From: a virus
DNA length: 39,107 nucleotides
IMG/VR virus record: IMGVR_UViG_3300048592_000798
Location: 1-39,107 of that record
Strand: one strand, 5' to 3'
A program made the translations under genes and the position numbers. The notes below the pieces were generated by a model. That model was given only the letters and a program-made list of their open reading frames with translations. It was not told the DNA's origin and did no database searches. Positions 2,449 through 38,519 of the stretch are shown piece after piece; within the stretch, counting starts at the first letter, position 1; every line of letters begins with the position of its first letter.

Positions 2449-2455
2449 GGGAGCT

Positions 2456-11800: not shown

Positions 11801-12848
11801 CATCATCGCCGGGATCGAATCGCGGCGCGGGGCGCTGAATTCCACAATGGAATCCGTGTCAGCCGAGGCCATCCGCGTAACCGAAGGGGCCAACGAGATC
11901 GCCTCTCCCTCGCGGCTGTATATGAACATCGGCCAGGAGATCATCGCCGGTATCGTGGCCGGGCTGGACGCCGAGCAGGACACCCTCTACGGCAAGCTGA
12001 CCGACATAGCCAACACCCTCTACGGCATCGGCAACCGCGTCTTCGGGCTGCAAGCCGACGCCCTGGGGGCCGACATCGACGCGACCACCGACCGGATGAC
12101 GGCCGCCTTCGACGCGTTGCGGCAGACGTTCGGCGACACGGTGGTGGACAACCTGCTGAACATGTCGGAGAGCAACCGGGCCTTCTTCGTCGCCTGGCTG
12201 CGCGGGTCGTCGGCTTACCAGAACAACGTCGAGGTGCAGCGGAATCTGGACGAGGTCATCCGGCTGGCGAACGAGCGCAACGCGCTGGAGCAGGAGTACA
12301 TCCGGCAACAGGATGAGCTGGCGGCGCTGGAAGCGGAGCGGTCGCGGCTCGACTTCCTCCAGACGCAGGTCGAGCTACTTGACCTCATCCGCGAGAACAA
12401 CCTGGGCGCGGACATTCTCGACGGCCTGACGCTGGGGCTGGACGCCTCCATGACCGACATTCTGGCGGCCATGACCGAGGCCACGCGGCAACTGGTGGAG
12501 CGGGCCAACGACGAACTTGAGATCGCCTCGCCGTCGGCCGTCTTCCGGCGCATCGGCGAGCGGGTGATGGAAGGGCTGGCCGGTGGCTTGTCCCAGACCC
12601 GCGACGTGCAGGCGCAGATCGCCGAGACGACGCGGCACATGACCGCGCTGGGCCTGGCCGACACGCGGGCGCTGGAAGGGCGCTTGCAGGCCGGGCTGAA
12701 CCGGACGATCCGGGTCGAGGCGCAGGGGTTGAACCCCACACAGCACGTCGCCATCTACGGCGGCTACAACGTCGAGGTGCAGGGGCGGCCGACCACCGAC
12801 CCGCTGCGCGATCTGTGGCAGGCCAATCTGCCTTATCAGCGGGGGTAA
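8841..12848 (+). CDS. Tape measure protein
   Basis: A 1335-residue protein. It has an N-terminal KVDLDVSGLRRGVTEAQKALG helix, then the classic TMP region (ETTRLQFETLMGSADEAREHVADLFDFAKRTPFE, cut for length) and FGEAAQNLMQLGAVS. A hydrophobic stretch at about 285-385 includes an Ala/Gly/Thr run and GLVIAAVGLLAVAW, likely the membrane-inserting part during DNA ejection. The C-terminal third repeats the 'IASPS(R)x(F/Y)xxIGxxxxxGxxxGL' motif near residues 1020 and 1228, with weaker related copies between them. Long helical segments separate them. TMP length sets tail length; at about 1.5 angstrom per residue it predicts a tail near 200 nm. It is also the scaffold for tail tube assembly with the chaperones upstream. 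Confidence 0.93.
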   Translation: MTSISLGSASAKVDLDVSGLRRGVTEAQKALGTLQNTAKMAFGAVGLGAGAGFALAVKSAVDMNATLETTRLQFETLMGSADEAREHVADLFDFAKRTPFETGPIIQASRQMRVFGGDALDTEENLTRVGDTAAAIGAPIEDISFWVGRAYAAIQGGQPFGEAAQNLMQLGAVSPQVVAEMNRLRDAGASADEIFAVFQTHMDGFSGAMEKQSRTWSGLMATISDSVKMALADALLPFFEGAKSGLEQIVAILDDPDTQAAIADFAARLSEMMAVIIPLAIEHGPALVKVMGALMAVLGAVTVVNKAVKGYLALKAVISGVAAFFGLTATAGTAAAAGTAAAGAAATGATAAVGGLSGVLAALTGPIGLVIAAVGLLAVAWNKNWFGIRDRTAEAVAKVREIIDRGMALLRGLWDKHGAGILAAWQKIWAAVTLYFRTTWENIQSIFKIFAAIFRGDWEEVGRQVRQIWERTLHMLVTVFTNLWDALRPALASLAAKIVAWWLGIDWGDLGRKAARGIAEGLASSDFERGFGGYESGQRVREAFLSGWRDAAEDDSWADWAAKEAEQVAERQAAAIQQGAETADRAMLAYAEGYGEVTQAAGLTVSQLARVRSEIGQTGDGMKLAADRSDKFAAGMDSLTAAATRNKTAIDEAAAAAQRYAAAFAGVQADYVTERPKAEDPLVTPERTVTVTTQISGPTEEQRALAERYTAELDKLRESYVELTSGVGTFGMEQEKLDEKIAETAGEIAHYEGLLAGLPAAVNEVSTSQQGLKVNVDAVHQGIYDQLVQMNAAPEVITAYAVATGIMTTAQAEAALQAAAVKVKIEELGTKIAEGMPIDKALADLDAFISKIEGGAVPAAQTMANDVPLALAPMSEEMSTQATAAGEAVPDNIAGGITDNLETATEAATEAADAVTQAVRDAHGIEGESSSVFADIGAQDITGLIEGAEGLEGDAVDTMEGIGQSTVDAWDPTISAAEGIGVAIMDGIIAGIESRRGALNSTMESVSAEAIRVTEGANEIASPSRLYMNIGQEIIAGIVAGLDAEQDTLYGKLTDIANTLYGIGNRVFGLQADALGADIDATTDRMTAAFDALRQTFGDTVVDNLLNMSESNRAFFVAWLRGSSAYQNNVEVQRNLDEVIRLANERNALEQEYIRQQDELAALEAERSRLDFLQTQVELLDLIRENNLGADILDGLTLGLDASMTDILAAMTEATRQLVERANDELEIASPSAVFRRIGERVMEGLAGGLSQTRDVQAQIAETTRHMTALGLADTRALEGRLQAGLNRTIRVEAQGLNPTQHVAIYGGYNVEVQGRPTTDPLRDLWQANLPYQRG

Positions 12849-12851
12849 GGG

Positions 12852-14792
12852 ATGTCGCATACGACGAAGGTCATCTCCATCGGGCAATTGAATGTGGCGG
12901 CGGGCGGCTACTCGGCGACGCTGGACAGATCGTTCCGGCAACCGGAATCGACCGTCTCGCGGGTGGCGCGAGACACCGACGCGCCCATCGTCACCAACGT
13001 CGCCCTGGGGCTGCACGCGCTCTACCTTGAGGTGCTGGTGTTGAGCGCCGGGGTGCCGGCCGATGACGTGGACGCCCGGCGGCGGGCGCTCCTGCGCGAG
13101 TTGGATACGACGCGCGGGCCGGTGACGCTGGTTGTCGAGAACGCCACGGGCACACCCCGGACGCGCTACATGCAGTGCATCGTCCGCGCCATCGACCCGA
13201 GAGAAGGGCAGGGCGGCGTGGGGTTTACCGTCGCGCTGGAGGCGTATGACCAGGTGCGCTGGCAATCCACGTCCGAGACGATTGAGACGTGGACGATGAG
13301 CGAATCCGGCACGCACACCGTCACCGTGGCCGGGGATTTGGACGTGTATCCGGTCTACACCCTGACGCCCGTTGACGGCAAGACCGCGCCCAACTGGCCT
13401 TACCAGCGTCGGGTGTTCGTGGAGTGGCGCTCGCCCTATGGCGGGGCGCATCCCATCGACGTGACCGGCGGCGGACTGGACACCAATACCCTGCTGGCGA
13501 ATGGGCAGATCAACGACGAAACCAACATCGCCGTCATGATGAACGGCCGCATTCACCGCCACTGGACGCCGGGCGGCAACACGACCTACCCCGACGCCTT
13601 CGGCACGACCCAGACGCGCATCTGGATCAACATGGAGTTCCAGCCGGCCGTCTACCCGGTCTTGGCTCAGTACGTCAGCGCCACGGCCACGGCCTGGCCG
13701 GTGTGGGACGACGAGGGGCTGCCGCCTTCGGGCACGCTCCAGGTCGGGGCGGAGATTGTGACCTACGCCAGCCGCGCCCCCGGCTTTCTCTATGGGGTCA
13801 AGCGCGGGCGGTGGGGCACGGCGGCCGAGGCCCACAACGGTTTCTCCAACATTACCCACTACCAGGGCGTCGGCTGGATTCTCTACGGGCCGACGGCCGT
13901 CACGCCGGAGGGGATGAAGGACAGCGCCTACCACGCCGCCCAGCCGCCGATGTTCCTCAACTACGGTTCCAGTAACGCGGTGTGGTTCTACGACGAGTTC
14001 GCCGCGCCGGGGCGGGCCGGAAGCTGGGTGTTCAACTCCTTCCTCAACAACATCGGCTACGTCACGAAATCGTCCACGACCGGGACGTTCGATTCCACCT
14101 GGACGTATCCGTGGCAGGCGTTGGGGCTAAAGGCGGGCTGGACTTCGCTCTCGGTCTTCGCCCTGCGGCTGGCCGTGCCGGTCAAGTCGCTGCGGGTGCA
14201 GGGGCGGCGCGTCGTGCGCGGGTCGCCGCTGACCTCACCCAACTCACCGCTTCTGTCGGCGCTATCCGACGACCAGCAGCAGCGGCGGCCCATCTGGCGG
14301 GCGACGGAAGGGGCGACGACAACGCCGGCCTGGTTCGATGAGGCGTCGGGCGACATTCGCCCGGCCGCCTTCGACCCCAACCCGGCCGACTATAACCGGC
14401 TGTGGTGGGCGGTCAACCACGCCAACCACTTGCAGGCCGACATCCAGCAGATGTGGATCACCCTCGACGACAACTACACGCCCATCGTCACCGTCGGTGC
14501 GCAGCAGACGGACTACGACCTCGACGTGACGCTGACCAACCAGACGACGGGGGAGAGCCTGGCGGTGCAGTTCCCCAACCTGGTGGAGGGGGAGAGCCTG
14601 GTGATTGACAGCCAATGGCAGACGGTGACCTACACGCTCGACGGCTCCAACCAGTACCACGCCGTGCAGCGGGACGCGGCGCGGCCGAAGTTCCTGCGCC
14701 TCGCGCCGGGGGCCAACGAGCTACAGGTGACGGAAACGGGCATGGGCGAGTTGGAGATCAGCGTCGCCTACCGGGCGCGGTGGTACGCCTAA
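12852..14792 (+). CDS. Distal tail protein-like (Dit), enlarged
   Basis: A 646-residue protein immediately after the tape measure gene, the normal position of Dit. The N-terminal 150 residues (TTKVISIGQLNVAAGGY, then ALYLEVLVLSAGVPADDVDARRRALLRELDT and VTLVVENATGTPRTRYMQCIV) match the Dit/ORF19.1 arrangement of a split-barrel-like domain with the alpha helix after a duplicated beta sheet. A beta domain follows (VYPVYTLTPVDG ... FVEWRS). The large remainder is beta-rich with aromatic-rich segments and a C-terminal LAPGANELQVTETG typical of Dit tails. The extra central region, about 250 residues, may hold carbohydrate-binding insertions. It would form the hexameric hub at the tail tip. The SD overlaps the end of the tape measure gene. 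Confidence 0.65.
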   Translation: MSHTTKVISIGQLNVAAGGYSATLDRSFRQPESTVSRVARDTDAPIVTNVALGLHALYLEVLVLSAGVPADDVDARRRALLRELDTTRGPVTLVVENATGTPRTRYMQCIVRAIDPREGQGGVGFTVALEAYDQVRWQSTSETIETWTMSESGTHTVTVAGDLDVYPVYTLTPVDGKTAPNWPYQRRVFVEWRSPYGGAHPIDVTGGGLDTNTLLANGQINDETNIAVMMNGRIHRHWTPGGNTTYPDAFGTTQTRIWINMEFQPAVYPVLAQYVSATATAWPVWDDEGLPPSGTLQVGAEIVTYASRAPGFLYGVKRGRWGTAAEAHNGFSNITHYQGVGWILYGPTAVTPEGMKDSAYHAAQPPMFLNYGSSNAVWFYDEFAAPGRAGSWVFNSFLNNIGYVTKSSTTGTFDSTWTYPWQALGLKAGWTSLSVFALRLAVPVKSLRVQGRRVVRGSPLTSPNSPLLSALSDDQQQRRPIWRATEGATTTPAWFDEASGDIRPAAFDPNPADYNRLWWAVNHANHLQADIQQMWITLDDNYTPIVTVGAQQTDYDLDVTLTNQTTGESLAVQFPNLVEGESLVIDSQWQTVTYTLDGSNQYHAVQRDAARPKFLRLAPGANELQVTETGMGELEISVAYRARWYA

Positions 14793-14801
14793 AGGAGCGC
14801 C

Positions 14802-15389
14802 ATGACGACATTCACGGCAACGGTGGCCGCTTCGGCCGACGACGCGCAGGAAAGCGACCACGTAAACACCATCAACGGGACGACGCTCAACGCCAACTTT
14901 GCGCACCAGATTATCGGGTTGCGCTTCACCGGCGTGACCGTGCCGCCCGGCTCGACCATCAACAGCGCCAAGCTGACGCTCAACCTGCCTAACGCCACCT
15001 ACGACGACCCGGACGTGACGATTCGCGGGGCGGGTGAGGCCAACCCGGCGGCCTTCACGACCGACACCGACCACCTGTCCGGCCGCCTGAAGACGGGCGC
15101 GGCCGTGACGTGGACGGCGACGGCCATCGGTACGGGGGCGCGGGACACGCCCGACCTCAAGACGCTGGTCGAGGAGACGATTGCCATTTCCGGCTGGGCG
15201 TCGGGCAACGCGATGGCCTTCTACATCACCGGGTCGGCCGCCAGCCTGCTTCGCATCTACAGCTATGACAACGGCAGCGGCGCGCCGCAACTGACCATCG
15301 ACTACACCGCGCCGGCGGGCGGGGCCGGGTCGAAGGTTCGCCGCGGCCGTCTGTCTACGAAAGTTGGAGGACTGCTATGCAGTATTTAG
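14802..15389 (+). CDS. Minor tail protein with a DNRLRE-like beta-sandwich
   Basis: A 195-residue protein with a strong SD (AAAGGAG) before ATG 14802. Its core, residues about 38-165, reads IIGLRFTGVTVPPGSTINSA, then KLTLNLPN, DVTIRGAGEANPAAF, SGRLKTGAAVTWTA, TPDLKTLVEETIA, and ASLLRIYSYDNGSGAPQLTI. This is the pattern of DNRLRE/TGF-beta-propeptide-like beta-sandwich domains common in secreted adhesive proteins of environmental bacteria ('GLRF.nv.Ip.ga.I.sA.l.f.......l.I.ge....a.f'). On a phage tail it may bind cell-surface glycans. It ends in a basic tail (RRGRLSTKVGGLL) and its gene overlaps the next by 13 bases. Confidence 0.65.
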   Translation: MTTFTATVAASADDAQESDHVNTINGTTLNANFAHQIIGLRFTGVTVPPGSTINSAKLTLNLPNATYDDPDVTIRGAGEANPAAFTTDTDHLSGRLKTGAAVTWTATAIGTGARDTPDLKTLVEETIAISGWASGNAMAFYITGSAASLLRIYSYDNGSGAPQLTIDYTAPAGGAGSKVRRGRLSTKVGGLLCSI

Positions 15390-16483
15390 GCGATTTTGCC
15401 GCTTCGGCCACCGTCGATTTCATGTGGTCATCGAACGGCGCGGACGGCGCATCCATCACCCGCGACACGAACGGAACCATCTCGGTCTACAAGGGCAACT
15501 CCACGACGCAGACGACGACCGGGGTGACGGATACGGAGGACTTCGATTCCCTGACCGGCGTCCACCACTGCCGCATCGCCACGACCGACGCCTTCTACGC
15601 CACGGGCAACAACTACATGGTGGTGCTGTCGGGCGCGACCATCGACGGCAAGACGGTCAACGCGGTGCTGGCTCATTTTTCCATTCAGAACCGCTACGCC
15701 CCCACGCCGCCGACGGCCGCGGCCATCTCCGACCAGGTGTGGGACGAGGCTAGAAGCGAGCACGTGACGCCCGGCAGCTTCGGTGAGGGGGTGGTGGTCA
15801 ACAGCATTGCCGACAACGCCATTGACGCCGGGGCGCTGGCGACTAGCGCCATTGATGAGCTTGTGGATGGGGTGTGGGACGAGGCTCTGAGCGGCCACGC
15901 CACGACCGGGTCGGCGGGCGAGGCGCTCTCCGACGCGGGCACGGGCGGCGGCGGTGGAGCGACGGCGGACGAAATTGCCGACGCGGTATGGGATGAGGTT
16001 GTCTGGCTTGACCATCACCTGCCCAACTCGGCGGGACTGTGGCTGACCTACGCCAAACAGGGGACGTACCTCTATAGCTCGGCCACGGCGGCCGAGAACC
16101 TGAAGAAGGTTGTCGATGGGACGGGCTTAGCCATGCCCAACGTCTCTATCGGCGCGGTCGGCGCGGTGACGGGCACGGTCAACGCCAACATGGTCAACCT
16201 GGGTTCGTCTCCGGCCACGTTCGACAAGCTGGTGGCGCTGGCCAAGGCGGCCGTCATCGGCATCGTCAACACCGGCACGAACACGACCACGGTTGTAACC
16301 GGGCTGGGGCTGTCGGCGGTCAACGGGTTCTACGTGGGCAAGACGTTCGTCGCCACGAGTGGGGCGAACGCCGGCCAGGGCGGCAAGCTGGTGACGGCCT
16401 ACGACGGGGCGACCAAGCGACTGACAATCGAGGCGCTGACCTCGGCTATGGCGGTCGGGGACACGTTCGTTTTGGTGGGCTAG
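15377..16483 (+). CDS. Minor tail / receptor-binding-region protein with VWDE repeats
   Basis: A 368-residue protein. The N-terminus (about 1-115) is a beta domain (DFAASATVDFMWSSNGADG, ITRDTNGTISVYKGN, GVHHCRIATTDAFYATGNNYMVVLSGATIDGK) seen in many phage tail proteins. The middle has three copies of a short motif, I.D.VWDEA..eH..pGS.GE, near residues 122, 162 and 200. The C-terminus (about 255-368) is beta-rich and ends GGKLVTAYDGATKRLTIEAL. The VWDE motif is known from baseplate upper-type tail proteins, where it probably forms a linker or trimerisation segment. Its role is in the tail tip or side fibre. The gene overlaps the previous one. Confidence 0.65.
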   Translation: MQYLGDFAASATVDFMWSSNGADGASITRDTNGTISVYKGNSTTQTTTGVTDTEDFDSLTGVHHCRIATTDAFYATGNNYMVVLSGATIDGKTVNAVLAHFSIQNRYAPTPPTAAAISDQVWDEARSEHVTPGSFGEGVVVNSIADNAIDAGALATSAIDELVDGVWDEALSGHATTGSAGEALSDAGTGGGGGATADEIADAVWDEVVWLDHHLPNSAGLWLTYAKQGTYLYSSATAAENLKKVVDGTGLAMPNVSIGAVGAVTGTVNANMVNLGSSPATFDKLVALAKAAVIGIVNTGTNTTTVVTGLGLSAVNGFYVGKTFVATSGANAGQGGKLVTAYDGATKRLTIEALTSAMAVGDTFVLVG

Positions 16484-16487
16484 GGCT

Positions 16488-17666
16488 ATGGCGTATTCAT
16501 CCGGCTTCTGGACGTATCGGCGGGGGACAGGGGGAGGCACGCCGCCTCCCCCGCCTCCCCCGCCGCCGCCCATCTTCATTGCCCCGCCGTCGTTGTCGCC
16601 TACGGCCTACATCCTGTACGTGGCGAACGCACGCGGCCAGGTCATCGGGGAGATGGCGGGGATGCTGGAGGCGGTCAGTTGGACAACCGACGGCTACGGC
16701 ATGGCGACGCTCGTCCTGCCGCTGTCGGCGGCGCTGACCTACGGGCCGCTGCTGGAGTTCGGCAACCGGGTGGTGATCGAGTTCTCCAACGGCCTGCCGC
16801 CGTGGGGCGGGGTCATCGACGTGCCGCGCGAGACGACGTTGGGCCAACTGCGGGTGCAGATGTACGAGGCGGCCTACACGTTCAACTGGCGGCTGACGCA
16901 GCGCAACGCGCTCTACCTGGAGAGCGACGCCCGGCCGGCGGCGGCCGTGCTGGTTGACCTGGTGCGCTGGGCCGGGCTGGACGTGGCTATCTATGAGGCG
17001 GCCGGTCAGGGCGACGGCGCGGCGGTGGAGGTGGAGTTTCACTACGAGACGCTGAGCGCGGCGGCCGACAAGCTGCGCGGGCTGGACGGGGCGTTCCACT
17101 ACTTCCTGCGCCCGCGGCCGTCGGGCGGGCGGCGCATTGACTTCGAGTTAGTCACCTTCCGCGACATGCTGACCGATGACAGTGACCGGGCCATCTTCAT
17201 TCAGGGGCATAACCTGGTGGACTGGGCGGTTTTGGAGCAGGGGCCGATCTACAACGAAGTGTTGGTGGGCGTGGGGGACTTCCTGGGCGAGAGCGAGGCG
17301 GGCGAAACCGACGCCTACGCCGAACTGTACACGGCCACCGACGCGGCCTCGGTGCGGCGCTACGGGCTGCGGCAGCACATGGCGGCCCTGCCGGACGTGG
17401 CCGGCGAGAGCGGGCCGGGGCGGGCCGGGGCGCACGCGCGGGCGCAACTGGCGGCGACCTCCAAGCCGCGGCTGCGGGTGCGCGGGGCGTCTTTGAACCT
17501 GCCGCCGGGATTGTATCGGGACTTCGGCATCGGGTCGCGGGTGCGGATCGACGCCTCCACGCCGATGGCAACAAGTGAGTACCTCACAGTTATTGGCATG
17601 GAGTTTCAGCCGAGCACGGGCACGCTGTCGCTCACGTTCGACGACGGCGGCAGCATCGAGGGGTAA
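16488..17666 (+). CDS. Tail hub / tail-associated protein (Gp37-like)
   Basis: A 392-residue protein opening with a Gly- and Pro-rich leader (about ten consecutive prolines, residues 19-28). Then follow YILYVANARGQVIGEMAGMLEAVSWTT, ATLVLPLSAALTYGPLLEFGNRVVIEFSNG and WGGVIDVPRE, the characteristic opening of siphovirus ReqiPepy6 Gp37-like and Tal-type hub proteins. The middle has ALYLESDARPAAAVLVDLVRWAG and 'GAFHYFLRPRPSGGRR', and the end is a beta domain RVRIDASTPMATSEYLTVIGMEFQPSTG. It probably forms a trimer closing the tail tube. The poly-Pro leader is probably a flexible spacer unusual for this family. Confidence 0.7.
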   Translation: MAYSSGFWTYRRGTGGGTPPPPPPPPPPIFIAPPSLSPTAYILYVANARGQVIGEMAGMLEAVSWTTDGYGMATLVLPLSAALTYGPLLEFGNRVVIEFSNGLPPWGGVIDVPRETTLGQLRVQMYEAAYTFNWRLTQRNALYLESDARPAAAVLVDLVRWAGLDVAIYEAAGQGDGAAVEVEFHYETLSAAADKLRGLDGAFHYFLRPRPSGGRRIDFELVTFRDMLTDDSDRAIFIQGHNLVDWAVLEQGPIYNEVLVGVGDFLGESEAGETDAYAELYTATDAASVRRYGLRQHMAALPDVAGESGPGRAGAHARAQLAATSKPRLRVRGASLNLPPGLYRDFGIGSRVRIDASTPMATSEYLTVIGMEFQPSTGTLSLTFDDGGSIEG

Positions 17667-17671
17667 AGGAC

Positions 17672-17980
17672 ATGGGAAGAGAGCAGTACTACCAGAACAA
17701 CCCGCTGGCCGAACTGGCGGCGTTGAAGGCCCGAGTGGCAACGCTGGAGAAGGCGGTGCTGGCCGGGCGCGGCGGGGCCACGGCGGCGGCGGCGGCCGGG
17801 ATGGCGGGCATCTCATCTGACACGCCGACGGCCGCCTTGCCGCCGGCGGGCGAGATTCCGCCGGTCTACTTCGTGGACTATGAGACGACGATCGCCTATC
17901 AGGGCGTGGTGCGAACGGTGGAGGGCAAGGTGCGGCTCTACTTGCAGCCGGTCGGCCGCGTGCGGGCGGCGGGGAGTTAG
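17672..17980 (+). CDS. Small tail-tip protein with N-terminal coiled coil
   Basis: A 102-residue protein. Residues 12-34 (LAELAALKARVATLEKAVLAG) form a predicted coiled coil, probably trimeric. An Ala/Gly stretch, then a beta segment (PPVYFVDYETTIAYQGVVRTVEGKVRLYLQPVG), follow. Short proteins with one coiled coil and a small beta head between hub and tailspike genes often act as an attachment adaptor. It has no enzymatic motif. The gene sits 5 bases after the hub gene and 8 before the tailspike gene. Confidence 0.6.
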   Translation: MGREQYYQNNPLAELAALKARVATLEKAVLAGRGGATAAAAAGMAGISSDTPTAALPPAGEIPPVYFVDYETTIAYQGVVRTVEGKVRLYLQPVGRVRAAGS

Positions 17981-17988
17981 GGGGAGAG

Positions 17989-20900
17989 ATGACGACTTAC
18001 TACGTGCATAAGGGAGTGGGTTCGGACTCCAACAACGGGCTGAGTTGGGCCAATGCGTTTAGCTCGCTGACGAAGGCCAAGAACACGGCCGGCAACAACG
18101 ACACGATCTACGTTCGCGCCGGGTCAACGCCTTACCAGGAACAACTCATTCTGAACAAGAACGGCCAGCGGTGGTTAGCCGATGACGGGCATCAGCCGAT
18201 CATCGACGGCAAGTACCACGACCAACTGACTGACTTCAACCTCGTCAACAAGCCGCTGGGCACGTATGTCGTCCAGAAGGACAGCAAGGGATCGCAGCCT
18301 TCCCTCACTGGCATCGGTGGTGACGACAACGAGTTCGCCGGTTTCTTCATTCGGAACGGGGCGGGGAATGCCCTATCCATCACCGGCGCGAACAATCACG
18401 TTCACCACATGAAAATCGACTTCCATTATGGCGCGAACATTCTGATTAACCCCACAGGCGACCCGAATGACTGTCACGATAACGTCGTGGAGGACACTGA
18501 AACCTCTCGTGGCAGCATCATGATTTTTGCGCCCAAAGACCGAGAGGAGTGGGGCAAGAAAGAGGACGGTTCGCTTGCAGGCTACATTCAGGTCTGCAAC
18601 GCCATGAAGAACTGCCATCACAACACCTTCCGCCGGATCATCTGCCACCACCAGAACGGCGAGGCGTTGGTATTGGGCAAGAACAGCGAGTACTGCGTCA
18701 TCGAGTTGTGTACCGTGTGGAATAACTTCCACATGAATCTGTACATGAACAACACCCGCTCAAGCATTATGCGCTGGAACACCTCCTGGGTGTCCTGGAA
18801 TGATGACTTCCTGCGCGGTGACAAGCCGGGCAAAGACCCCTGGCCGACGGAGTGCATCGTCATTGGCGACGAGAAGGAAGGCGGAACTTACTCGCGCTAC
18901 AACCAGGTCTATGGCAACCTATTCGTAGGCGGCAAGGCGGTCATCGGACAGCGCAACGGCAGCAATTACGACACGGTTTTGCGCGACTTCTACTTCGGCT
19001 ACAACACCTGTGTCGGCGGGGCGGGCGTCACCAAGAACATAAGCTCCTTCGGGCCGTCGGAACTGGGGGATAACCACACCAACGCCATTATCGAGAACAA
19101 CATCCTCTACCACAGCGGGCCGTTTGAACTGAGCGGCCGATTCTTCCTCAGTAATACGGCTCCCAACGTCAGCGGGCGCGGAAACCTCGTATTTTGGGAG
19201 GGCCACTCCGATCTTAACGTGCCCGGCTTCATCGGCTCAGCTATCAAGGCCGATCCGAAGCTCGTCAATCCCAAAGCGCCCATCGTGGACTACGCCGGGA
19301 ACGGCGACAACCCCAAGTTGGGCACGACGGGCAAGGGGCCGTTCGAGGGGAACAACTTCAACGCCAACAACTACAAGCTGACCGGCTCATCGCCGGCCAT
19401 CGGCGCGGCGGCCGGCGGCTATCCGTTTGGTGGACATCCCGGCGTCCCGCTGGCCGCGCAACGGGACATTCTGGGCGCGACACGTTCCGACCCCGACATC
19501 GGCTGCTACGAATTCGGCGGCCAGGTGACCAACTCGGTCACGGCCGCCTTCAACGCCTCGCCCGCCGCGACCACGCTGGTCGAGGGTACGCAGGTGAACT
19601 TCACCGACGCCTCGTTCACGACCGGCTCGGCCTCCATCACCGGGCGGACGTGGACGGTGAAGAAGGCAGGGACGACCGTCCACACGGCCACCAGCCAGAA
19701 CCTCGCCTACACCTTTGCCACCGACGGCAGCTACACGGTGCAACTGGCGGTGACGGCCTCCGGCGGTCTGTCGGATGACCACATTGTGACCTACACCATC
19801 ACCAACGACGCGCCGGGTGTGACGGTGACGGCCGCCTTCAGCGCCGCGCCGCCGCAGACGACGGTCGAGCAGGGTACGGTGGTGACGTTCACCGACCAGT
19901 CCACCGTGCAGAACGGCACACTGGCCTCGCGGGCCTGGGCCGTCCTGGAGTTGCCGGGCGCGACGGTGCAGGTGGCATCGGGCACGGGCACGACCTTCAC
20001 CCACACGTTTAACACGCCCGGCAGCTTCCGCGTGCGCCTGACGGCCGTGGCCGCGACCGGCCAGAGCGACACCGAGACGCGGGACTACACCGTCAACGCC
20101 GTGACCGCGCCGACGGTCAACGCCGCCTTTACCTCGTCCGACGGGGACGGGGTGATTAACGAAGGGGAGAGCATCACCTTCACCAACACCTCGACGGTGG
20201 CGAACACGACCATTTCGGGCTACCTGTGGACGGTGACGCGCTCAGGCGGCGCCCCGGCGACCTACACCAGTGCCAACGTCACGCACGTTTTCTCGCAGCC
20301 GGGCATTTACACGGTGACGCTGCGGGCCGACACGGCCGCGGGCATCTCCGACACCGAGACGATGACCGTGACCGTGCTGGGGCAGACCACGGCGGGCATG
20401 GACGCCATGATCGTCCCCCACTCGTTCGCCCTGGCGACTTCGACCGGCACGCAGACGGTGACGGCCGCGGCCCTGGGCACGAAGATTCCGAAGGGGGTTC
20501 ACCTGAAGGTGGTCGGGGCGACCGTGGCGGGCACGGCGGCGGCCGGGGCGCTGCTGAGTGAGGGCGCGGCCGACGGGCAGGCGCAGTGGGTACACTGCCG
20601 GTTTTCGTCCGACAATGAGGCAGTCCAGACGGCCGCCTGGCGGCGCTTCTCCACAGCGAAGATCGCCATGACCATTGACGCCACCGGGGCCAAGACAGGC
20701 GAGGCGGCGTTCGTGAAGTTCGTGCCCGGCGGCATGGAGTTGAACGTCACCGACGCCTTCCCGGCGGGCTACCTGGCTGAGGCGGTGTTCTACGCCGGGG
20801 ATGCAATGGAGTTCTGGGCCGGGACGATTCCCAGCATCGGCGCGGCCGGCCATACGCGCACGGTGACGACCGGCATCGACCAGGAGGCGGTTTACCTGTG

Positions 20901-31376: not shown

Positions 31377-31409
31377 CTCCCTGCCCCACCCGGCGCTTGG
31401 CAGAGCCTA

Positions 31410-31438
31410 TTGAATCCTGTCAGGTGGTATGGTATGAT
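31410..31438 (+). promoter_or_regulatory. Promoter of RHH/HTH gene pair
   Basis: TTGAAT (31410-31415) and TATGAT (31433-31438) are separated by exactly 17 bases, a good sigma-70-type promoter. The RHH gene begins 53 bases further on at GTG 31491. The leader contains the GC dyad GGCGGCCGCC. Confidence 0.6.
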
Positions 31439-31490
31439 ACGGGTTGGCGGCCGTATCTGTCCCATTGCGCGGCGGCCGCCCGGAGGCGAG

Positions 31491-31709
31491 GTGAAGGGAA
31501 CGGCAAATCCCCAGGACGAGAAGGGTCGCCCGGTGCAAGCGTGGATGTCCTATGACCTGATGCGCGAGTTGGATGAGGCGGCCGAGGAGCTGGGCTGGTC
31601 TCGCTCGCAGATCATCGTCCGCGCCTCGAAGTACTATCTGGACGAGATTAAGCGACGACGCGAGCGGCGGGCGGCCGCCGCCCCGTTCCCCCCACCCCCC
31701 GCTCCCTAG
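31491..31709 (+). CDS. Ribbon-helix-helix regulator
   Basis: A 72-residue protein starting with GTG 31491 after CGGAGGCGAG; earlier ATG starts lie upstream of the SD and are less likely. Residues about 13-55 read RPVQAWMSYDLMRELDEAAEELGWSRSQIIVRASKYYLDEI (cut), the beta strand then two helices of the Arc/MetJ/CopG fold, with a basic RRRERR stretch and Pro-rich tail. It would bind DNA as a dimer, probably the strong operator downstream at 31954-31975. It is co-transcribed with the HTH gene six bases on. Confidence 0.65.
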   Translation: MKGTANPQDEKGRPVQAWMSYDLMRELDEAAEELGWSRSQIIVRASKYYLDEIKRRRERRAAAAPFPPPPAP

Positions 31710-31715: not shown

Positions 31716-31940
31716 ATGGCCGGTGAATGGATTTCGGTCGCGGAAGCCGCCGAACTGAGCGGCTACCATCCCCAGCACGTGCGCGACCTGGTGCGCGACG
31801 GCCGCGTCAATGCCCGTCGCTTCGGCCGCCGCGCCTGGCAGGTCGAGCGGGCGTCGCTGGTGGCCTACATCGAGGCCATGCGGCAACGCGGTGAAAAACC
31901 CGGCCCCAAACCGGGCGCTGACGCGCCCGAACCCGGTTGA
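31716..31940 (+). CDS. Excisionase-like HTH (MerR-type, HTH_17) protein
   Basis: A 74-residue protein. Residues 4-52 (EWISVAEAAELSGYHPQHVRDLVRDGRV then NARRFGRRAWQVERASLVAYIE) are a clear helix-turn-helix of the excisionase/HTH_17 family: 'yltv.EaA..lg.s...v..lir.G.i.a.r.gr.w.i....l..yl'. In phages such proteins act as excisionases or regulators. No integrase is visible nearby, so a regulatory role is equally likely. The C-terminus is a short Pro/Gly-rich tail. Confidence 0.8.
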   Translation: MAGEWISVAEAAELSGYHPQHVRDLVRDGRVNARRFGRRAWQVERASLVAYIEAMRQRGEKPGPKPGADAPEPG

Positions 31941-32421: not shown

Positions 32422-32849
32422 AGCGACTGGGAGACCTCCTGAACCGCGTCCTGGTGGTGGGGCTGGTCGCCGTGGCCGTGGCCGTCTTCCTGGTGGGGCG
32501 CGAAGCGGTAGGCCGCGCGGCCGACTACAGGGAGATGACCGCGCCCAAGAGCCTGCACCAGCTCACCCTGGAGACGCGGGCCGAGCCGGAAGGTCGCGGC
32601 GGCGTGCTGCTCTTCGGCGCGGCGCTGGGCGTGGCGGCGCTGGCCTACGCCGGCGTGGTGGCCTTCGGCTTCCCGGCCGGGCGCGAGTTCGGCCGCTCCC
32701 TGGCCCGCCGCCGCAAGCGGGCGCGGCCCGCCCCTCCGGCCGGCTCCGGCCCGGCCCCCCTGCCCCTCGCCCCCCGGATGCGTGTCCTGCCCCCAGCCGA
32801 GACGGTGCGGTCGCTGCCGCCGGGGTACGAGGAGGGCCGCTATGAGTAA
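32418..32849 (+). CDS. Membrane protein paired with FtsK-like ATPase
   Basis: A 143-residue protein. Two membrane helices (VLVVGLVAVAVAVFLVG, about 11-27; GGVLLFGAALGVAALAYAGVVAFGF, about 60-84) enclose a short extracytoplasmic loop (AVGRAADYREMTAPKSLHQLTLETRAEPEGR, cut). The C-terminal tail is basic (RRRKRARP) and then Pro-rich, probably cytoplasmic. It overlaps both neighbours, and the next ATG starts inside its last codons, so it is probably made together with the ATPase and may form a membrane complex with it. Confidence 0.6.
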   Translation: MKRLGDLLNRVLVVGLVAVAVAVFLVGREAVGRAADYREMTAPKSLHQLTLETRAEPEGRGGVLLFGAALGVAALAYAGVVAFGFPAGREFGRSLARRRKRARPAPPAGSGPAPLPLAPRMRVLPPAETVRSLPPGYEEGRYE

Positions 32850-34557
32850 GACCATCCGCTCTATGCTAGGGACGGCTGTCGTACTGGCGCTCGTGGCCGT
32901 GGCCTGCGGCGGCGCGCCGGCGACGGGCGGCGCGCCGGATGTGAGTGGGCTGGATGTCCTCAAGGCCCAGTCAACGATCGACGCCTGGAACGCCATTCAG
33001 GCCACGGCCCAGACCGAGGCGCTGGCGGCCACGCGCCGGGCGGAGGAGGCTACGGCCCAAGCCGTGCAGCAGACGGCCGACGCGGCGGCGGCGCTGGCCA
33101 CGGGCACGGCCGTTGCCATCCAGGGCACGGTCGCGGCCCAGACCGAGGCGACGGCCGCCGCCCAGGCCACGGCCGGAGCCGTCGCCGCCCAGGCCACGGC
33201 CACGTGGGACGCCCTGATGCTCGACGCGCAGGCCGTGGCCATCCGGCAGACGGCCGACGCCGGGGCATACACCCTGTCGGCCACGGCCACGGCCGACGCG
33301 GCCATTGCCGCCTTCATGCGCCAGGAGGCGGACGCGGTGATCCGCGAGCGCAATGCCCAGGCGGCGCGGCGCGAAATGTGGAACAGTCTGGCCCCCTGGG
33401 TGGTCGGCGGCGTGGGGCTGACGGCCGTGGGCGTGGTCTTCCTGCTGGTGGGCGGCTACGTCATCCAGCAACTGCGGCAGTCCCGCCCCCAGCGAGCGGG
33501 GGAGATCGGGTTCGTGGTCTGGGGGCCACAGGGGCCGGTCGCCATCGCCGCGCCGCCGCCGCGGCCGCAGCTGACCGCCCGCGTCGAGCCGCCGGTGGAC
33601 GTCACGCCCGCGGCCGGGCCGGAGGCCGCGCCCATCCCCCTGCCGGTCATTGACAAGGGGCACATGCTCATCGCCGGCGAGACGGACAGCGGCAAATCGA
33701 CGGCCGCCCGCCTCATCGCCGGGCAGCGCGGCGACGTGCGCGTGCTCGACCCGCACTGGAACGGCCGCGACTGGGCCGGGCTGGAGGTCATCGGCGGCGG
33801 GCGGGACTTCGACGCCATCCGCGACTCGATGGACTCGCTGCGCGAGCTGCTGCGCGTCCGCTACAGCGAGCGACTGGACGGCCGCGACGACTTCGCGCCG
33901 CTGACCGTGTTCGTGGACGAGATGCCGGCCATTGTCGCCGCCCTGGGCCGCGACGTGCGCGACTTCTGGCGCGAGTGGCTGCGCGAGGGGCGCAAGGTGG
34001 GGCTGTTCCTGGTGCTGCTGACGCAATCGACCCGCGTGCGCACCCTGGGAATCGAAGGGGAAAAGGACGTGCTGGAGAACTTCGGCAACGTCCTGGTGCT
34101 GGGCAAGCTGGCCGTGGCCGAGCATCCCCGGCTGGTCGAGGGCATGGCCCGCCCGGCGGTGCTGCGAACGATGGGTAGCGCCCTGCCGGTTGTCATCCCC
34201 CACGTGCCGGACGGCGCGCGGCCGTCGGCGGCCCCCACCGCCGATGGGCCGCGGCCGGCCGCGGCCGACGTGCCGCCGCCCATCATCTACGCCACGACCG
34301 AGTGGCCGACGCGGCGCGAGGACGCGCCCATCGACCTCAACAACATCGACGGCCGCGCCCGGCAGCGGATCGTGGACGAATACCGGCGCACGATGGTCTT
34401 CCGGCAAGTGCAACTCAACCTGTTTCCGAACTACGCCGACGACGGCGGCCAGGCCGGGCAGGTCATCCGGCGCGTGCTGGCCGACGCGGGGATGATCGAG
34501 CGCGGCACGGACGGCCGCTGGCGTCCGACGGTCGAGGCGCTGGGCTACGAGGCTTAG
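32842..34557 (+). CDS. Membrane-anchored FtsK/TraB-like P-loop DNA translocase
   Basis: A 571-residue protein. Residues 1-22 look like a signal peptide with a lipobox-like AVAC (C22; Ala at -3 is less typical). Residues about 45-170 are an Ala/Thr/Gln-rich helical stalk (ATAQTEALAATRRAEEATAQA and similar). A membrane helix is at about 186-210 (WVVGGVGLTAVGVVFLLVGGYVI). The cytoplasmic ATPase follows: Walker A G279ETDSGK285ST, Walker B LTVFVD359E360MP, and LLTQSTRV as sensor region. C-terminal residues about 490-571 (RARQRIVDEYRR ... GQVIRRVLADAGMIERGTDGRW) look like a winged helix. This matches hexameric dsDNA pumps of the FtsK/TraB class, with an unusual outside stalk. A dense repeat array follows immediately. 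An alternative is a VirD4/HerA-like ATPase with another role. Confidence 0.75.
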   Translation: MSKTIRSMLGTAVVLALVAVACGGAPATGGAPDVSGLDVLKAQSTIDAWNAIQATAQTEALAATRRAEEATAQAVQQTADAAAALATGTAVAIQGTVAAQTEATAAAQATAGAVAAQATATWDALMLDAQAVAIRQTADAGAYTLSATATADAAIAAFMRQEADAVIRERNAQAARREMWNSLAPWVVGGVGLTAVGVVFLLVGGYVIQQLRQSRPQRAGEIGFVVWGPQGPVAIAAPPPRPQLTARVEPPVDVTPAAGPEAAPIPLPVIDKGHMLIAGETDSGKSTAARLIAGQRGDVRVLDPHWNGRDWAGLEVIGGGRDFDAIRDSMDSLRELLRVRYSERLDGRDDFAPLTVFVDEMPAIVAALGRDVRDFWREWLREGRKVGLFLVLLTQSTRVRTLGIEGEKDVLENFGNVLVLGKLAVAEHPRLVEGMARPAVLRTMGSALPVVIPHVPDGARPSAAPTADGPRPAAADVPPPIIYATTEWPTRREDAPIDLNNIDGRARQRIVDEYRRTMVFRQVQLNLFPNYADDGGQAGQVIRRVLADAGMIERGTDGRWRPTVEALGYEA

Positions 34558-34595
34558 TCGGATGCGCCGGGCGCATCGCGCGAGCATCCGACTAA
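34554..34595 (+). repeat. 12-bp inverted repeat spanning the FtsK-like gene stop
   Basis: TTAGTCGGATGC (34554-34565, contains the TAG stop) and GCATCCGACTAA (34584-34595) are perfect inverted repeats with an 18-base centre that itself holds GCGC...GCGC. Each arm contains one copy of the array unit (AGTCGG / CCGACT), so it is both a probable hairpin terminator and the left border of the array. Confidence 0.75.
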
Positions 34596-34815
34596 CCCGG
34601 CCGCCTGTCCCGACCGCGTCCGACTAACCCCGCCTCGCCCCGCCAGCCCGTCCGACTGACGGCCGCCGGGCGTCCGACTAGCCCCCTGCCCGCGTCCGAC
34701 TAACCCTCAAAAACCATCCGACCTGACCCTTCAGTCGGGTCTAGTCGGGCGTAGTCGGGCGTAGTCCCTTCCGACTGGGCCGCGCGCGGGCAGTCGGGCG
34801 GTATTCGTCGGATGC
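34554..34815 (+). repeat. Phased CCGACT repeat array (iteron- or clt-like)
   Basis: CCGACT occurs at 34588, 34620, 34652, 34674, 34696, and as CCGACC at 34718: spacings 32, 32, 22, 22, 22. The three best units read TCCGACTAACC. Then the orientation flips: AGTCGG at 34733, 34743, 34753 and as AGTCCC at 34763, every 10 bases. CCGACT follows at 34771 and AGTCGG at 34792. GTCGGATGC bounds both ends (34557-34565 and 34807-34815). The region is gene-free (34558-34905). Spacings of about 2 and 3 helical turns, then one turn, put sites on one face of DNA. It may be an origin, a centromere, or a recognition site for the neighbouring translocase. Confidence 0.85.
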
Positions 34816-34818: not shown

Positions 34819-34859
34819 ATAAGCACCATGCCGCGTATAATACACAGCATGGTGCTTAT
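34819..34859 (+). promoter_or_regulatory. Promoter within a perfect 13-bp inverted repeat
   Basis: ATAAGCACCATGC (34819-34831) and GCATGGTGCTTAT (34847-34859) are perfect inverted repeats. The 15-base centre contains TATAAT (34836-34841). The -35 region is weak (near 34813). This is the look of a promoter whose -10 is flanked by repressor sites, controlling the antirepressor gene 47 bases on. It lies directly beside the CCGACT array. Confidence 0.7.
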
Positions 34860-34862
34860 CCA

Positions 34863-34888
34863 AAGGGTGGGTCATATGGCCCACCCTT
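34863..34888 (+). promoter_or_regulatory. Leader hairpin before antirepressor SD
   Basis: AAGGGTGGG (34863-34871) pairs with CCCACCCTT (34880-34888), a perfect 9-bp stem with an eight-base loop. The SD GGAGGG (34893-34898) begins five bases later. There is no T run, so it is likely an mRNA structure, not a terminator, possibly controlling translation of the antirepressor. Confidence 0.5.
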
Positions 34889-34905: not shown

Positions 34906-35697
34906 ATGCAGGTGATGGTTCAGAAGGAAGTTGAGTTCTACGACGACCGGCTGACGGCTGTGCGGGCCGACGACGGCCGTATCTACGTTTCGGTCAATGA
35001 GGTCTGCGGCGTGCTGGGGCTGGATCGCAAGGCGCAGCAGCGACGCATCCGCGAGCATGACGTGCTGGGCGAGGGCGTGGCGGCGCTGGTCATTGACACT
35101 GCCGGCGGCCCCCAGTCGGTGCTGATGCTGCGCCACGACCTTGTGCCCTTGTGGCTGGCCGGGGTGCAGGGCCGCGCCGTGCGCGACGACGTGCGGCCGA
35201 AGCTGAAGACCTTCCAGCTTCGCGCCGCCCAGGTCTTGGCCGAGGCGTTCACCGACGGCCGCCTGACGGCCGAGGGGGAGGTGAGCGACGCGCTCTCAGG
35301 GGTCAGCGTAGAGACCGCTCAGGCGGTCGAGATTGCCCGCGCGGTCTTCGCCCTGGCGCGGGCGCAGGCGGCGCTGGAGGCGCGTCTGGGCGGCCGTCTG
35401 GAGGCCGTGGAAGGGCGTCTGGAAACGATCGAGGCGGCGATGGGCAACAAGGCGCGGCTCATCACCGAGGAGCAGGCCACCGCGCTCAGCCAGGCGGTCA
35501 AGGCCGTGGCGATGGCGCTTGGCAAGGCGTCGGGCCGCAACGAGTTCGGCCAGGTGTGGTCGAACCTCTACCGGCGCTATGGCGTCGCCGCTTACCGCCA
35601 GCTCCCGGCGCGACGGTTCGACGAGGCGATGAAGTGGCTTGACCAGTGGTACGCCGAGGCGACGGCCGCCGAGCCGGGCAACCCCCTGCCGTTCTAA
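34906..35697 (+). CDS. Phage antirepressor (P22 AR N-terminal type)
   Basis: A 263-residue protein. ATG 34906 is chosen because GGAGGG is seven bases upstream; a longer start at 34828 would lie inside the 13-bp repeat. Residues about 6-115 read VEFYDDRLTAVRADDGRIYVSVNEVCGVLGLDRKAQQRRI (cut), then VLMLRHDLVPLWLAGVQ and LKTFQLRAAQVLAEAF, the P22_AR_N domain. Residues 135-185 form a coiled coil (LEARLGGRLEAVEGRLETIEAAMG), and the C-terminus (FGQVWSNLYRRYGVAAYRQLPARRFDEAMKWLDQWY, cut) matches the ORF6C-type domain. It would bind the phage repressor and trigger lytic growth. Its own promoter appears tightly controlled. Confidence 0.85.
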   Translation: MQVMVQKEVEFYDDRLTAVRADDGRIYVSVNEVCGVLGLDRKAQQRRIREHDVLGEGVAALVIDTAGGPQSVLMLRHDLVPLWLAGVQGRAVRDDVRPKLKTFQLRAAQVLAEAFTDGRLTAEGEVSDALSGVSVETAQAVEIARAVFALARAQAALEARLGGRLEAVEGRLETIEAAMGNKARLITEEQATALSQAVKAVAMALGKASGRNEFGQVWSNLYRRYGVAAYRQLPARRFDEAMKWLDQWYAEATAAEPGNPLPF

Positions 35698-35708: not shown

Positions 35709-35927
35709 ATGCGGCCGTTTGTGGACAACACGCTCTTCTATGGGGATAACCTGCCGATTCTGCGTGAGTATGTGGCGGCCGAGTCGGTGGACTTGATCTA
35801 TCTCGACCCGCCGTTCAACAGTAACCGGACGTACAATGTGCTGTTTCGGCAGGAGGGGGGACAGGATTCGGAGGCGCAGATCGCGGCGTTCGAGGACTCG
35901 GCTACTGAGTTGACCTCTGTCGGGTAG
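35709..35927 (+). pseudogene. Truncated DNA methyltransferase fragment
   Basis: The 72 codons encode NTLFYGDNLPILREYVAAESVDLIYLDPPF, with the DPPF catalytic motif of N4/N6 amino-methyltransferases, then NSNRTYNVLFRQEGGQDSEAQIAAFEDS, typical of the beginning of a site-specific DNA methyltransferase. It then runs into unrelated residues and a stop. Intact enzymes of this kind have at least 300 residues including an AdoMet motif absent here. The fragment is a remnant, or the first part of a gene interrupted by deletion. It could not methylate DNA alone. Confidence 0.7.
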
Positions 35928-35968: not shown

Positions 35969-35997
35969 AAAGCGGCCGATTGTTCGGCCGCTTTTTT
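35969..35997 (+). terminator. Intrinsic terminator
   Basis: AAAGCGGCCGA (35969-35979) pairs with TCGGCCGCTTT (35984-35994), loop TTGT, followed by further T to give six in a row (35992-35997). This is the clearest rho-independent terminator in the window, separating the antirepressor unit from the partition genes. Confidence 0.9.
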
Positions 35998-36019
35998 CAT
36001 ACAGGCGATTCTACGGGGA

Positions 36020-36078
36020 TTGACAATGAATTACTCATCTGCTAGACTGTTTGTAACATTGAGTAACCTTGTGTAAAC
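36020..36078 (+). promoter_or_regulatory. ParA promoter with operator/centromere-like repeats
   Basis: Perfect TTGACA (36020-36025) and TAGACT (36043-36048) are 17 bases apart. TTACTCA (36031-36037) and TGAGTAA (36060-36066) form an inverted repeat around the -10. GTAAC occurs at 36053 and 36063 and GTAAAC at 36073, exactly every ten bases. RHH-type partition proteins bind short repeats of this kind at the promoter of their own operon, which can double as the centromere. Confidence 0.75.
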
Positions 36079-36091
36079 GGAGATGAACGCG

Positions 36092-36943
36092 ATGGGAGTT
36101 GTAGTTGCAGTATTGACCGCCAAGGGCGGCACGGGCAAGACGACGACGGCCGTGAACCTGGCGCTTGGTCTGGGCCACCGGCTGGCTCACGAGGGCAAGG
36201 ATGATGACGTGATCATCATCGACTGCGACCCGCAGGGCAATGCGGGCGACTACCTGGGGGCGCACGCGCACATGTACCACCCCACCCGCAACCCGCAGGG
36301 CGCGTGCCTCAGTCGGGTGCTGAAGGGCGAGACGGCGGCGCTCGACGCGCTGGTCGAGGTGCGCGAGAACGTGTGGCTGCTGCCGGCGACACCGGCGCTG
36401 AATGAGGCGGTTGAGGACATTGCCCTGCTCAGCGCGACCAAGGCGGCCCGCGGCCGTCGGGCCGAGTCGCTGCGCGACGTGTTCAAGCGCCAGTTGGGGC
36501 CGCTGGTGCGCGAGGCGCGGTTCGTGGTGCTGGACTGCCCGCCCAATCCGGGACTCCTGGAAGTGCCCATCACCGACTTCGCCGACTTCGTTGTCTCGCC
36601 GGTGCAGCTGCAATACCTGAGCGTGATGGGCGTCATCCAGTTCGCCGAGTCGCTCAAGGCGCTGCGCGAGACGGAGAAGGTCAAGGCGCAGATCGCCTGT
36701 ATTGTGCCGTCGATGACTTCCCCCTACCGCGACGGCGAACCGCACCAGCTGGCCGAGCGGCAGATGCTGGCCGAGCTGGCCCAGGTCTTCGGCGCGAAGC
36801 GGATGAGTCCGGCGATTGAGCTGGGCGCGAAGGTCAAGGAAGCGCCCGGTATTCACCAGTCCATTTTCGAGATGGCCCCCGCGTCGCCCCAGGCGCGGGC
36901 CTACGGGCATCTGGTCAACAGGGTGTACGCCTATGGCAAGTAA
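36092..36943 (+). CDS. parA: ParA-family partition ATPase
   Basis: A 283-residue protein; ATG 36092 is preferred to ATG 36083 because GGAGA lies eight bases before it. It has the deviant Walker A K11GGTGKTT, Walker A' IIIDCDPQGNAG, and Walker B VVLDCPPNPG. It lacks the N-terminal HTH of larger ParA proteins, so it is of the small type (Ib), in which the partner protein, not ParA, binds the operon promoter. It would use the nucleoid to position plasmid or plasmid-prophage DNA. The next gene, overlapping by 11 bases, encodes an RHH protein. This pairing is strong evidence of an extrachromosomal state at some stage. Confidence 0.9.
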   Translation: MGVVVAVLTAKGGTGKTTTAVNLALGLGHRLAHEGKDDDVIIIDCDPQGNAGDYLGAHAHMYHPTRNPQGACLSRVLKGETAALDALVEVRENVWLLPATPALNEAVEDIALLSATKAARGRRAESLRDVFKRQLGPLVREARFVVLDCPPNPGLLEVPITDFADFVVSPVQLQYLSVMGVIQFAESLKALRETEKVKAQIACIVPSMTSPYRDGEPHQLAERQMLAELAQVFGAKRMSPAIELGAKVKEAPGIHQSIFEMAPASPQARAYGHLVNRVYAYGK

Positions 36944-37289
36944 GATGAAAGCGAAGCAGGCGGAGCGTGGAACGCCCGCGCGAGTGATAGGCAGTGCCAC
37001 GGCCGACCGGGGTTTCACGGCCGAGACGGCCGACGCGGTAACGTCATCGGCTATCCCCACGTCGCTCCAGGCCGGGCGCTTCGTGCGCAAGACCATCACC
37101 CTACTCCCGGCGCGACTAGCTCGCGTGGATCAGATTGCCGAGGAACTCAAGGCCGAGATAGAGGCGCGGACGGGAATGCCGTCGAGCGTTCCGCTGCTGA
37201 CGTTGTACCGCTGGCTCATCGACCAGGGCATCGCGGCCTACGAGCGCGGCGAACGGCCACCGCTGGAGAACCGGGCGCGTATTCAGTGA
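36933..37289 (+). CDS. RHH centromere-binding partner of ParA
   Basis: A 118-residue protein beginning at ATG 36933 inside the end of parA. The first 48 residues are basic and disordered-looking (ASKMKAKQAERGTPARV), as in ParG-type partners, where this tail stimulates ParA ATPase. Residues about 50-105 (RFVRKTITLLPARLARVDQIAEELKAEIE then SVPLLTLYRWLIDQG) have the strand-helix-helix order of RHH DNA-binding proteins. It would bind the GTAAC repeats upstream of parA, serving as repressor and centromere-binding factor. The role is assigned from position and fold pattern. Confidence 0.7.
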   Translation: MASKMKAKQAERGTPARVIGSATADRGFTAETADAVTSSAIPTSLQAGRFVRKTITLLPARLARVDQIAEELKAEIEARTGMPSSVPLLTLYRWLIDQGIAAYERGERPPLENRARIQ

Positions 37290-37608: not shown

Positions 37609-37739
37609 CCAACAAACAACCAGAGACGCCCCTGTCCCGGTCGCGGCGCTACTGCTGCCGGCCGGTAGCGTGCTGGGTGGCGTCCTGGCCCGGGCGCAAG
37701 ACGAACCGGAGAAGAACCCATGAGCGAACGCCCCCCTGA
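37605..37739 (+). CDS. Very small basic ORF (doubtful)
   Basis: Forty-four codons from ATG 37605 in an ATGA overlap with the upstream gene, with SD GAGCAGGG. The product is basic with Cys and Trp residues (RRYCCRPVACWVASWPG). It overlaps the next gene by 20 bases. Overlap and SD support translation, but codon use is poor and no homology pattern is recognised. Confidence 0.25.
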   Translation: MTNKQPETPLSRSRRYCCRPVACWVASWPGRKTNRRRTHERTPP

Positions 37740-38088
37740 GTATCACGACGGCCGTCCGGCCGCCCCTTCCCGGCAGGCGTATTCGACCACCAGCGTCCGC
37801 CTGCCGGTCGATGATCTGGACGCCTGGCGGGCGGTCAAGTGGCGCGAGGCGGTGGCGGCGGCCGTCGGCCGCCTGGCCGCCGACGGCGCTTTCGCGCCGG
37901 GCGACACGCTGCGGCTGGAGCAGGTCGCGCTGCCCAACGTCGTCGCCGAGGGGTGGCTGCAAGTCACCGCCCGCGTCGAGGTCGAGCGCGAGGGCGAGAC
38001 GCCGCCCGTCGCCGCGCCCCTGAGCGGTGCGCCTCCGACCCGCCCGAAGCCGGAGACATCCCATACAGAGGTTCGCGAGGGCTGGTAA
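37720..38088 (+). CDS. Hypothetical protein, tandem paralogue 1
   Basis: A 122-residue protein beginning SERPPEYHDGRPA, with a core DLDAWRAVKWREAVAAAVGRLAADGAFAPGDTLRLEQVAL and a Pro-rich C-terminus. The next gene shares both the opening and the core, so these are tandem copies. The core looks like a short helix plus beta hairpin (LDAWR..V..AV.RL...G.F.PGDTL.L). No known function. Confidence 0.6.
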   Translation: MSERPPEYHDGRPAAPSRQAYSTTSVRLPVDDLDAWRAVKWREAVAAAVGRLAADGAFAPGDTLRLEQVALPNVVAEGWLQVTARVEVEREGETPPVAAPLSGAPPTRPKPETSHTEVREGW

Positions 38089-38120: not shown

Positions 38121-38519
38121 ATGAGCGAACAACCCCCTGAGTACGACGACGGCCGTCCGGCCCCGCTCGCCCCGCCGCCGGTAGGCGTGGCGCAGATTCC
38201 CTTTGCCAAGACCTTCGCCGGCGACGACGGCGACGCGCTGGACGCGTGGCGGCGGGCCGTGGCCGAGGCGGTGGACAGGCTCGTCGCCGAAGGCGTCTTC
38301 CTACCGGGCGACACGCTGGCGCTGAGTGGCGAGATAGGCCAGACCGGCCGCGTCATGGACAGGGGCGACTACCGGCAGGTGGTGGTGAATGGCGTCGTGG
38401 GCTTCGCCCGCGTCGAGGTGATGCGACCGGCCGCCGCCCCGCCCTGCGGCTGCTACACGTGCCGGATGCTGGCTGAGGTGTGGGATAACCCCGCCGACGC
38501 CGAGTACGATAACCTGTAG
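38121..38519 (+). CDS. Hypothetical protein, tandem paralogue 2
   Basis: A 132-residue protein starting at ATG 38121 after GGAGGAGAAAGAGA. It begins SEQPPEYDDGRPAP and contains ALDAWRRAVAEAVDRLVAEGVFLPGDTLALSG, matching the preceding gene. The C-terminal third differs (a CGCYTCRM segment with Cys residues that could bind metal). The nucleotide match over the first 45 or so bases of the two genes is high, suggesting recent duplication or gene conversion. Confidence 0.65.
   Translation: MSEQPPEYDDGRPAPLAPPPVGVAQIPFAKTFAGDDGDALDAWRRAVAEAVDRLVAEGVFLPGDTLALSGEIGQTGRVMDRGDYRQVVVNGVVGFARVEVMRPAAAPPCGCYTCRMLAEVWDNPADAEYDNL

Follow-up and report, generated by a model that had tools for sequence, protein, structure and literature searches.

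The window, a whole IMG/VR record of 39,107 nt without end repeats, carries a compact unit at 36020-37289 in which a promoter with short phased repeats is followed by a gene for a ParA ATPase and by a small gene overlapping it. The preliminary description had reported all of these elements and each was found where it had been placed. Ahead of them lies an intrinsic terminator hairpin (35969-35999, plus strand) with perfect 11-nt arms, AAAGCGGCCGA and TCGGCCGCTTT, a 4-nt loop (TTGT) and a following T-run; a comparable hairpin stands ahead of parA in the sister record G009, described below. This predicted terminator closes the upstream unit, insulating the par operon. The promoter (36020-36048, plus strand) is of sigma-70 type, TTGACA-17-TAGACT with a TG extended -10, and promoters of that kind number two in 4.6 kb against 0.5 expected. 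A putative operator (36031-36077, plus strand) consists of TTACTCA and three cores lying over the transcription start, GTAAC at 36053, GTAAC at 36063 and GTAAA at 36073, at a spacing of exactly 10 bp, and the TTACTCA at 36031 forms a 7-bp inverted pair with TGAGTAA at 36060. Between 4 and 39 of 1000 shuffles of the promoter region equalled these repeats, depending on word length; the GTAAC array is better than chance, but it is short. No array big enough for a clear centromere adjoins parA, and the three repeats are more likely to be an operator than a centromere.

The ParA protein and its overlapping partner

The gene parA (36092-36943, plus strand) encodes a Soj-like ATPase of 283 aa. A longer ORF runs from 36083 (286 aa), and the most likely start is at 36092, with a GGAG Shine-Dalgarno sequence at 36079-36082. 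The protein matches Pfam AAA_31 (3e-24) and the PHROG ParA family (7e-35), its closest solved chain is Thermus Soj, and a deviant Walker A motif, KGGTGKT, at about residue 10 is the sole KGGxGK in the window. Type Ib ParA ATPases are about 190-310 aa long, and the window protein agrees with them in size, in the deviant Walker A and in the absence of an N-terminal HTH, so that its earlier description as a small ParA without HTH holds. Single-sequence scans of IMG/VR with this ParA and with the small partner gave no match, and a scan of genome_contigs with ParA gave a Caballeronia ParA of 28% identity only. In a ParA tree the window protein is weakly joined to one ParB-partnered plasmid ParA and does not group with RHH-partnered ParAs; as its branch is long and unresolved, the type of partner is not readable from this tree.

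The small gene (36933-37289, plus strand) encodes 118 aa, a candidate centromere-binding protein or repressor, and overlaps parA by 11 nt. Its counterpart in G009 encodes 112 aa with a 4-nt overlap (start at 5494, parA stop at 5497), and in both genomes the gene lies downstream of parA and overlaps it, as in type Ib systems, a layout that was also found in many viral contigs. The preliminary description had called this an overlapping RHH gene. The overlap is real, but no RHH support came from Pfam, PHROG or NCBIfam, and the partner has no plasmid match, no solved structure and no profile match to the partners of cyanobacterial plasmids. A single-sequence AF2 model has a disordered N-terminus and two helices in the core, and a fold search with this model returned no significant match. 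A profile of phage RHH-like partners ranked the window protein first among the real ORFs of the window and of its longer relative G001, with 8 of 1000 shuffles scoring higher. In a direct pairwise comparison the window and G009 partners are homologous (E 6e-13), and the G009 protein has, by eye, a typical RHH-like strand-helix-helix spacing. An RHH-like C-terminal half is therefore plausible for the window partner as well. This protein is longer than that of G009 by about 12 residues in the helix region, which may explain why family models miss it.

Sister genomes and the exchange of the cassette

The IMG/VR record G001 (62,994 bp) is 99.8% identical to the window over positions 1-23456 and adds 39.4 kb upstream; the two were taken as separate records of one near-identical phage whose accessory genes may differ. 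The additional part of G001 carries a terminase, RusA, an RNA ligase, a MutS-I domain, MazG, an ORF of the capsid region (37479-39800) and, next to a PAPS reductase, a complete ParB. The terminase was recognised by family match, as were the portal, tail, tape measure and endolysin genes, and the capsid region was placed by synteny. A 203-aa protein of this part (L013 6557-7168), which is 100% identical in G009, joins a phage zinc finger to MutS domain I, the mismatch-recognition domain, with the rest of MutS missing. The sister record G009 (100,464 bp) aligns with the window and G001 along nearly its whole length at a nucleotide identity of 66-98%, mostly 77-95%. Its two ends, one of them with poly-C noise, overlap by about 150 bp (94%), giving a genome of about 100.3 kb, and the window spans the join, 31389-31706 matching the end of G009 and 31570 onward its start. 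On both counts the G009 sequence reads as a circular map, of either a circular genome or a circularly permuted virion genome. Runs of poly-G or poly-C and junk sequence occur at contig ends (L016, end of G001; L090 start, G009 end), and because of this assembly artefact end-repeat tests miss the overlap in G009. A stretch of about 7 kb of the window phage, from 39107 to position 1 of G001, is known through G009 alone, in which the counterpart encodes DnaB, an initiator-like wHTH protein and a protein resembling a response regulator. The response-regulator-like protein (L087 7743-8435) has a receiver and a Trans_reg_C domain and lies near the replication genes. Two more distant relatives, G004 and G007, have portal proteins at 41-42% identity; G004, which bears an integrase, also encodes a 326-aa protein (L017 8967-9947) that by eye resembles a ParM/StbA-type actin-like ATPase.

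At the locus of the par genes G009 has a ParA and an overlapping partner of its own, at 33-35% and 33% identity, and the repeats of its par promoter are GAATACA/TGTATTC in place of GTAAC. The left flank of the swap is an antirepressor gene (34906-35697, plus strand; P22_AR_N and ORF6C) at 76% amino acid identity to that of G009, and the right flank is a conserved small gene (37720-38088, plus strand) at 93% over the first 89 aa. Between the antirepressor and par lies an N-terminal fragment of an adenine methyltransferase (35709-35927, plus strand; 72 aa), missing there in G009, which is probably a recombination scar beside the cassette. The small gene at 37720-38088 is itself one of a tandem pair of paralogues with 38121-38519, sharing blocks of 61 and 79 nt at 80% and 73% identity. 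The overlapping gene is swapped along with ParA, whereas the full-size ParB encoded elsewhere does not track ParA, and on these grounds we infer that the small gene encodes the cognate ParA partner. The arrangement fits a type-Ib-like partition cassette exchanged between sister phage-plasmids, and by analogy such a swap would mirror the exchange of incompatibility determinants among plasmids.

The ATPase gene and its repeat array

Upstream of the antirepressor lies a gene for a putative membrane-anchored FtsK/HerA-like ATPase (32842-34557, plus strand), in which a Walker motif and a hydrophobic segment were identified by eye; its FtsK_SpoIIIE match, at 19.2 bits, is below the 24-bit cut-off. 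The gene ends where an array of 11 CCGACT/AGTCGG sites begins (34556-34797), with start spacings of 32, 32, 32, 22 and 22 and then 10 and 10. Elsewhere in the window there are at most 2-3 such sites per 270 bp, against 11 in these 242 bp, and no short word of the window, at parA or elsewhere, clusters as strongly. When 300-bp stretches of three records were scanned without bias, the leading word cluster of each lay just after a homologous ATPase gene. The word is AGTCGGA in the window, GGTAGGA in G009 (L087 3025-3141) and CGTTTCA, in 13 copies, in G011 (L089 11099-11309). No such array stands beside the plasmid relatives of the ATPase (pDU1, Tolypothrix, Pseudanabaena) or beside that of L088. 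Between the window and G009 the core of the ATPase is about 99% identical, the C-terminal end beside the array 60-80%. Between array and antirepressor gene there is also a 41-bp near-palindrome (34819-34859) with 13-bp perfect outer arms and a TATAAT centre, largely conserved in G009, which is probably an operator or promoter upstream of the antirepressor gene. Within 34819-34888 there is a second hairpin (AAGGGTGGG...CCCACCCTT), and the DNA fold z-score of this region is -4.2. The near-palindrome had raised the possibility of a protelomerase and a linear, N15-like prophage, which was rejected as PF16684 is absent from the window and G001; attP arm sites, considered for the array, were likewise rejected, no integrase having been found.

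The array lies 1.2 kb upstream of par, and it might be thought that these sites, and not the GTAAC repeats, form the centromere or an iteron origin of the par/rep functions. Eleven phased sites in so short a stretch would suit such a role, and G009 differs both in the word of the array and in its par cassette, as expected of a cognate pair. The C-terminal end of the ATPase next to the array diverges too, however, and G011 keeps the arrangement of ATPase and array while having neither a ParA match nor a ParA-type KGGxGK protein, so that the array tracks the ATPase rather than par. It adjoins par but is probably not part of it, and a centromere or iteron role for it is unlikely. Slightly better placed, though still doubtful, is the suggestion that the ATPase reads its own downstream array, the word and the C-terminal reader diverging together in a self-contained DNA-translocation module. 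This combination resembles the TraB-clt/TRS system of Streptomyces, in which the C-terminal winged helix of TraB recognises the short clt repeats (PMC3583192, PMC4170104). There too a single membrane-anchored FtsK-like ATPase adjoins arrayed short repeats, with a word that varies between relatives (PMC4170104, PMC3583192); unlike TraB, the window ATPase has a weak FtsK_SpoIIIE match only and is carried on a phage.

Partition, plasmid life and the alternatives

The full-size ParB (G001 7877-8932) offers ParA another possible partner. It is a real ParB, matching ParB_N (1e-25), HTH_ParB (3e-10) and TIGR00180 (131.9 bits, cut-off 58.45), and a split system in which it serves ParA from a distance as a CTPase-type ParB, with the small overlapping gene acting as a repressor only, would accord with chromosomal Soj being the closest solved relative of ParA and with the weak joining of ParA to a ParB-partnered plasmid ParA in the tree. 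Against this, ParB is 92.5% identical between G001 and G009 while the ParAs of the sisters share 33-35%, which argues against co-evolution, and it is the small gene that was swapped jointly with ParA. Canonical parS sites, allowing up to 3 mismatches, are absent from the window and from G001 1-20000. The ParB gene stands directly before a PAPS-reductase-like gene (L013 7877-10090; PHROG 12882, 9e-124), and ParB/PAPS gene pairs are known from phages. Taken together, the split system is very improbable. Only a little less improbable is an ordinary phage, integrating or obligately lytic, in which ParA and its partner have another role, such as regulation, the positioning of replicating genomes or interference with resident plasmids. 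Tyrosine integrases do occur in the distant relatives G004 and G007, in the latter with a serine recombinase as well, and the window has an excisionase-like HTH gene (31716-31940; TIGR01764, 30.7 bits) and no identified CI-type repressor. Yet searches for tyrosine integrases (PF00589) and for serine integrases or recombinases (PF00239) found none in the window, in G001 or in the circular, complete G009, through which the roughly 7 kb of the window phage lying outside these records is inferred, and the integrases of G004 and G007 used as queries gave nothing beyond E 0.27 in the three records. An integrase with att sites and a chromosomal junction had been named beforehand as what would overturn the plasmid reading; no junction was seen either. 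The antirepressor argues for a lysogenic cycle, and strong, locus-specific diversification of the cassette is typical of maintenance or incompatibility determinants. A transposable phage was rejected, rve being absent from the window and G001.

The genome combines the genomic features of phage-plasmids, for which a definition is given in PMC12977533: virion genes, no integrase (about 7 kb of its own genome lying outside the records), and partition and replication genes. The latter are the DnaB helicase and the initiator-like wHTH gene, a weak HTH_36 match, which lie downstream of par in G009, in a region that the window lacks. The preliminary description had proposed a search for a Rep protein; no recognised plasmid Rep is present, PF01051 being absent. 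Plasmids use such a two-gene kit to distribute their copies to daughter cells. An integrase-free, complete sister with a different version of the kit at the same spot makes a plasmid existence probable for this virus of bacteria, and the earlier proposal of a phage living as a plasmid is partly supported.

Among known systems, the type Ib partition systems (TP228 parFGH, pSM19035 delta-omega, pCXC100), whose layout and partner mechanism of repression and ParA activation through the N-terminus have been reviewed (PMC5016525), share with the window a small ParA without HTH, a small partner encoded directly after it whose N-terminus is flexible and whose RHH is, in the window, putative, and repeats that lie ahead of the operon and cover its promoter. 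The type Ib pattern proposed earlier stands as regards ParA and its downstream partner. As differences, the fold of the window partner goes unrecognised by sequence databases, the promoter has three short repeats only, more likely an operator than a centromere, and the cassette is carried by a siphophage. Mycobacteriophages of cluster A that carry parABS have it in place of the integration cassette, and their prophages are extrachromosomal (PMC7157519). These phages (RedRock, LadyBird, Miko) are likewise a temperate siphophage lineage with a par cassette and no integrase, and their partner proteins are diverse between close relatives (PMC7157519), but the window phage has an unrelated genome of about 86-100 kb, its lineage swaps ParA as well as the partner, and its par genes adjoin an antirepressor and an FtsK-like ATPase. 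The best database relatives of ParA come from cyanobacterial plasmids (Nostoc, Acaryochloris, Euhalothece, Pseudanabaena) and the cyanophage-like contig L038, which have the same gene order with a small gene overlapping parA; the ParA identity is only 28-32%, however, the partners are not confidently alignable and those genomes are AT-richer. Paper searches found no relevant host literature.

We consider, with a probability of about 0.72, that the unit at 36020-37289 serves a phage-plasmid as a type-Ib-like partition cassette, that it regulates itself and that sister lineages have swapped it. The RHH-like partner would bind the promoter-proximal phased repeats and repress the par operon, and would also bind a centromere to form the partition complex. 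Its disordered N-terminus would stimulate ParA, and nucleoid-bound ParA-ATP would move and space the prophage copies, so that the circular prophage is inherited. Together the records make a nearly complete genomic case, with a circular sister among them, for a phage lineage that lacks an integrase and probably lives as a plasmid. Since two close relatives differ at exactly the partition cassette, incompatibility-driven diversification of phages becomes directly testable. The ATPase with its array, present in three phages with three different words, is a testable lead on an undescribed DNA-handling system; if the ATPase does read its own array, the phage would have a system like TraB/clt or KOPS, and with it plasmid-style DNA transfer or active segregation besides virions.
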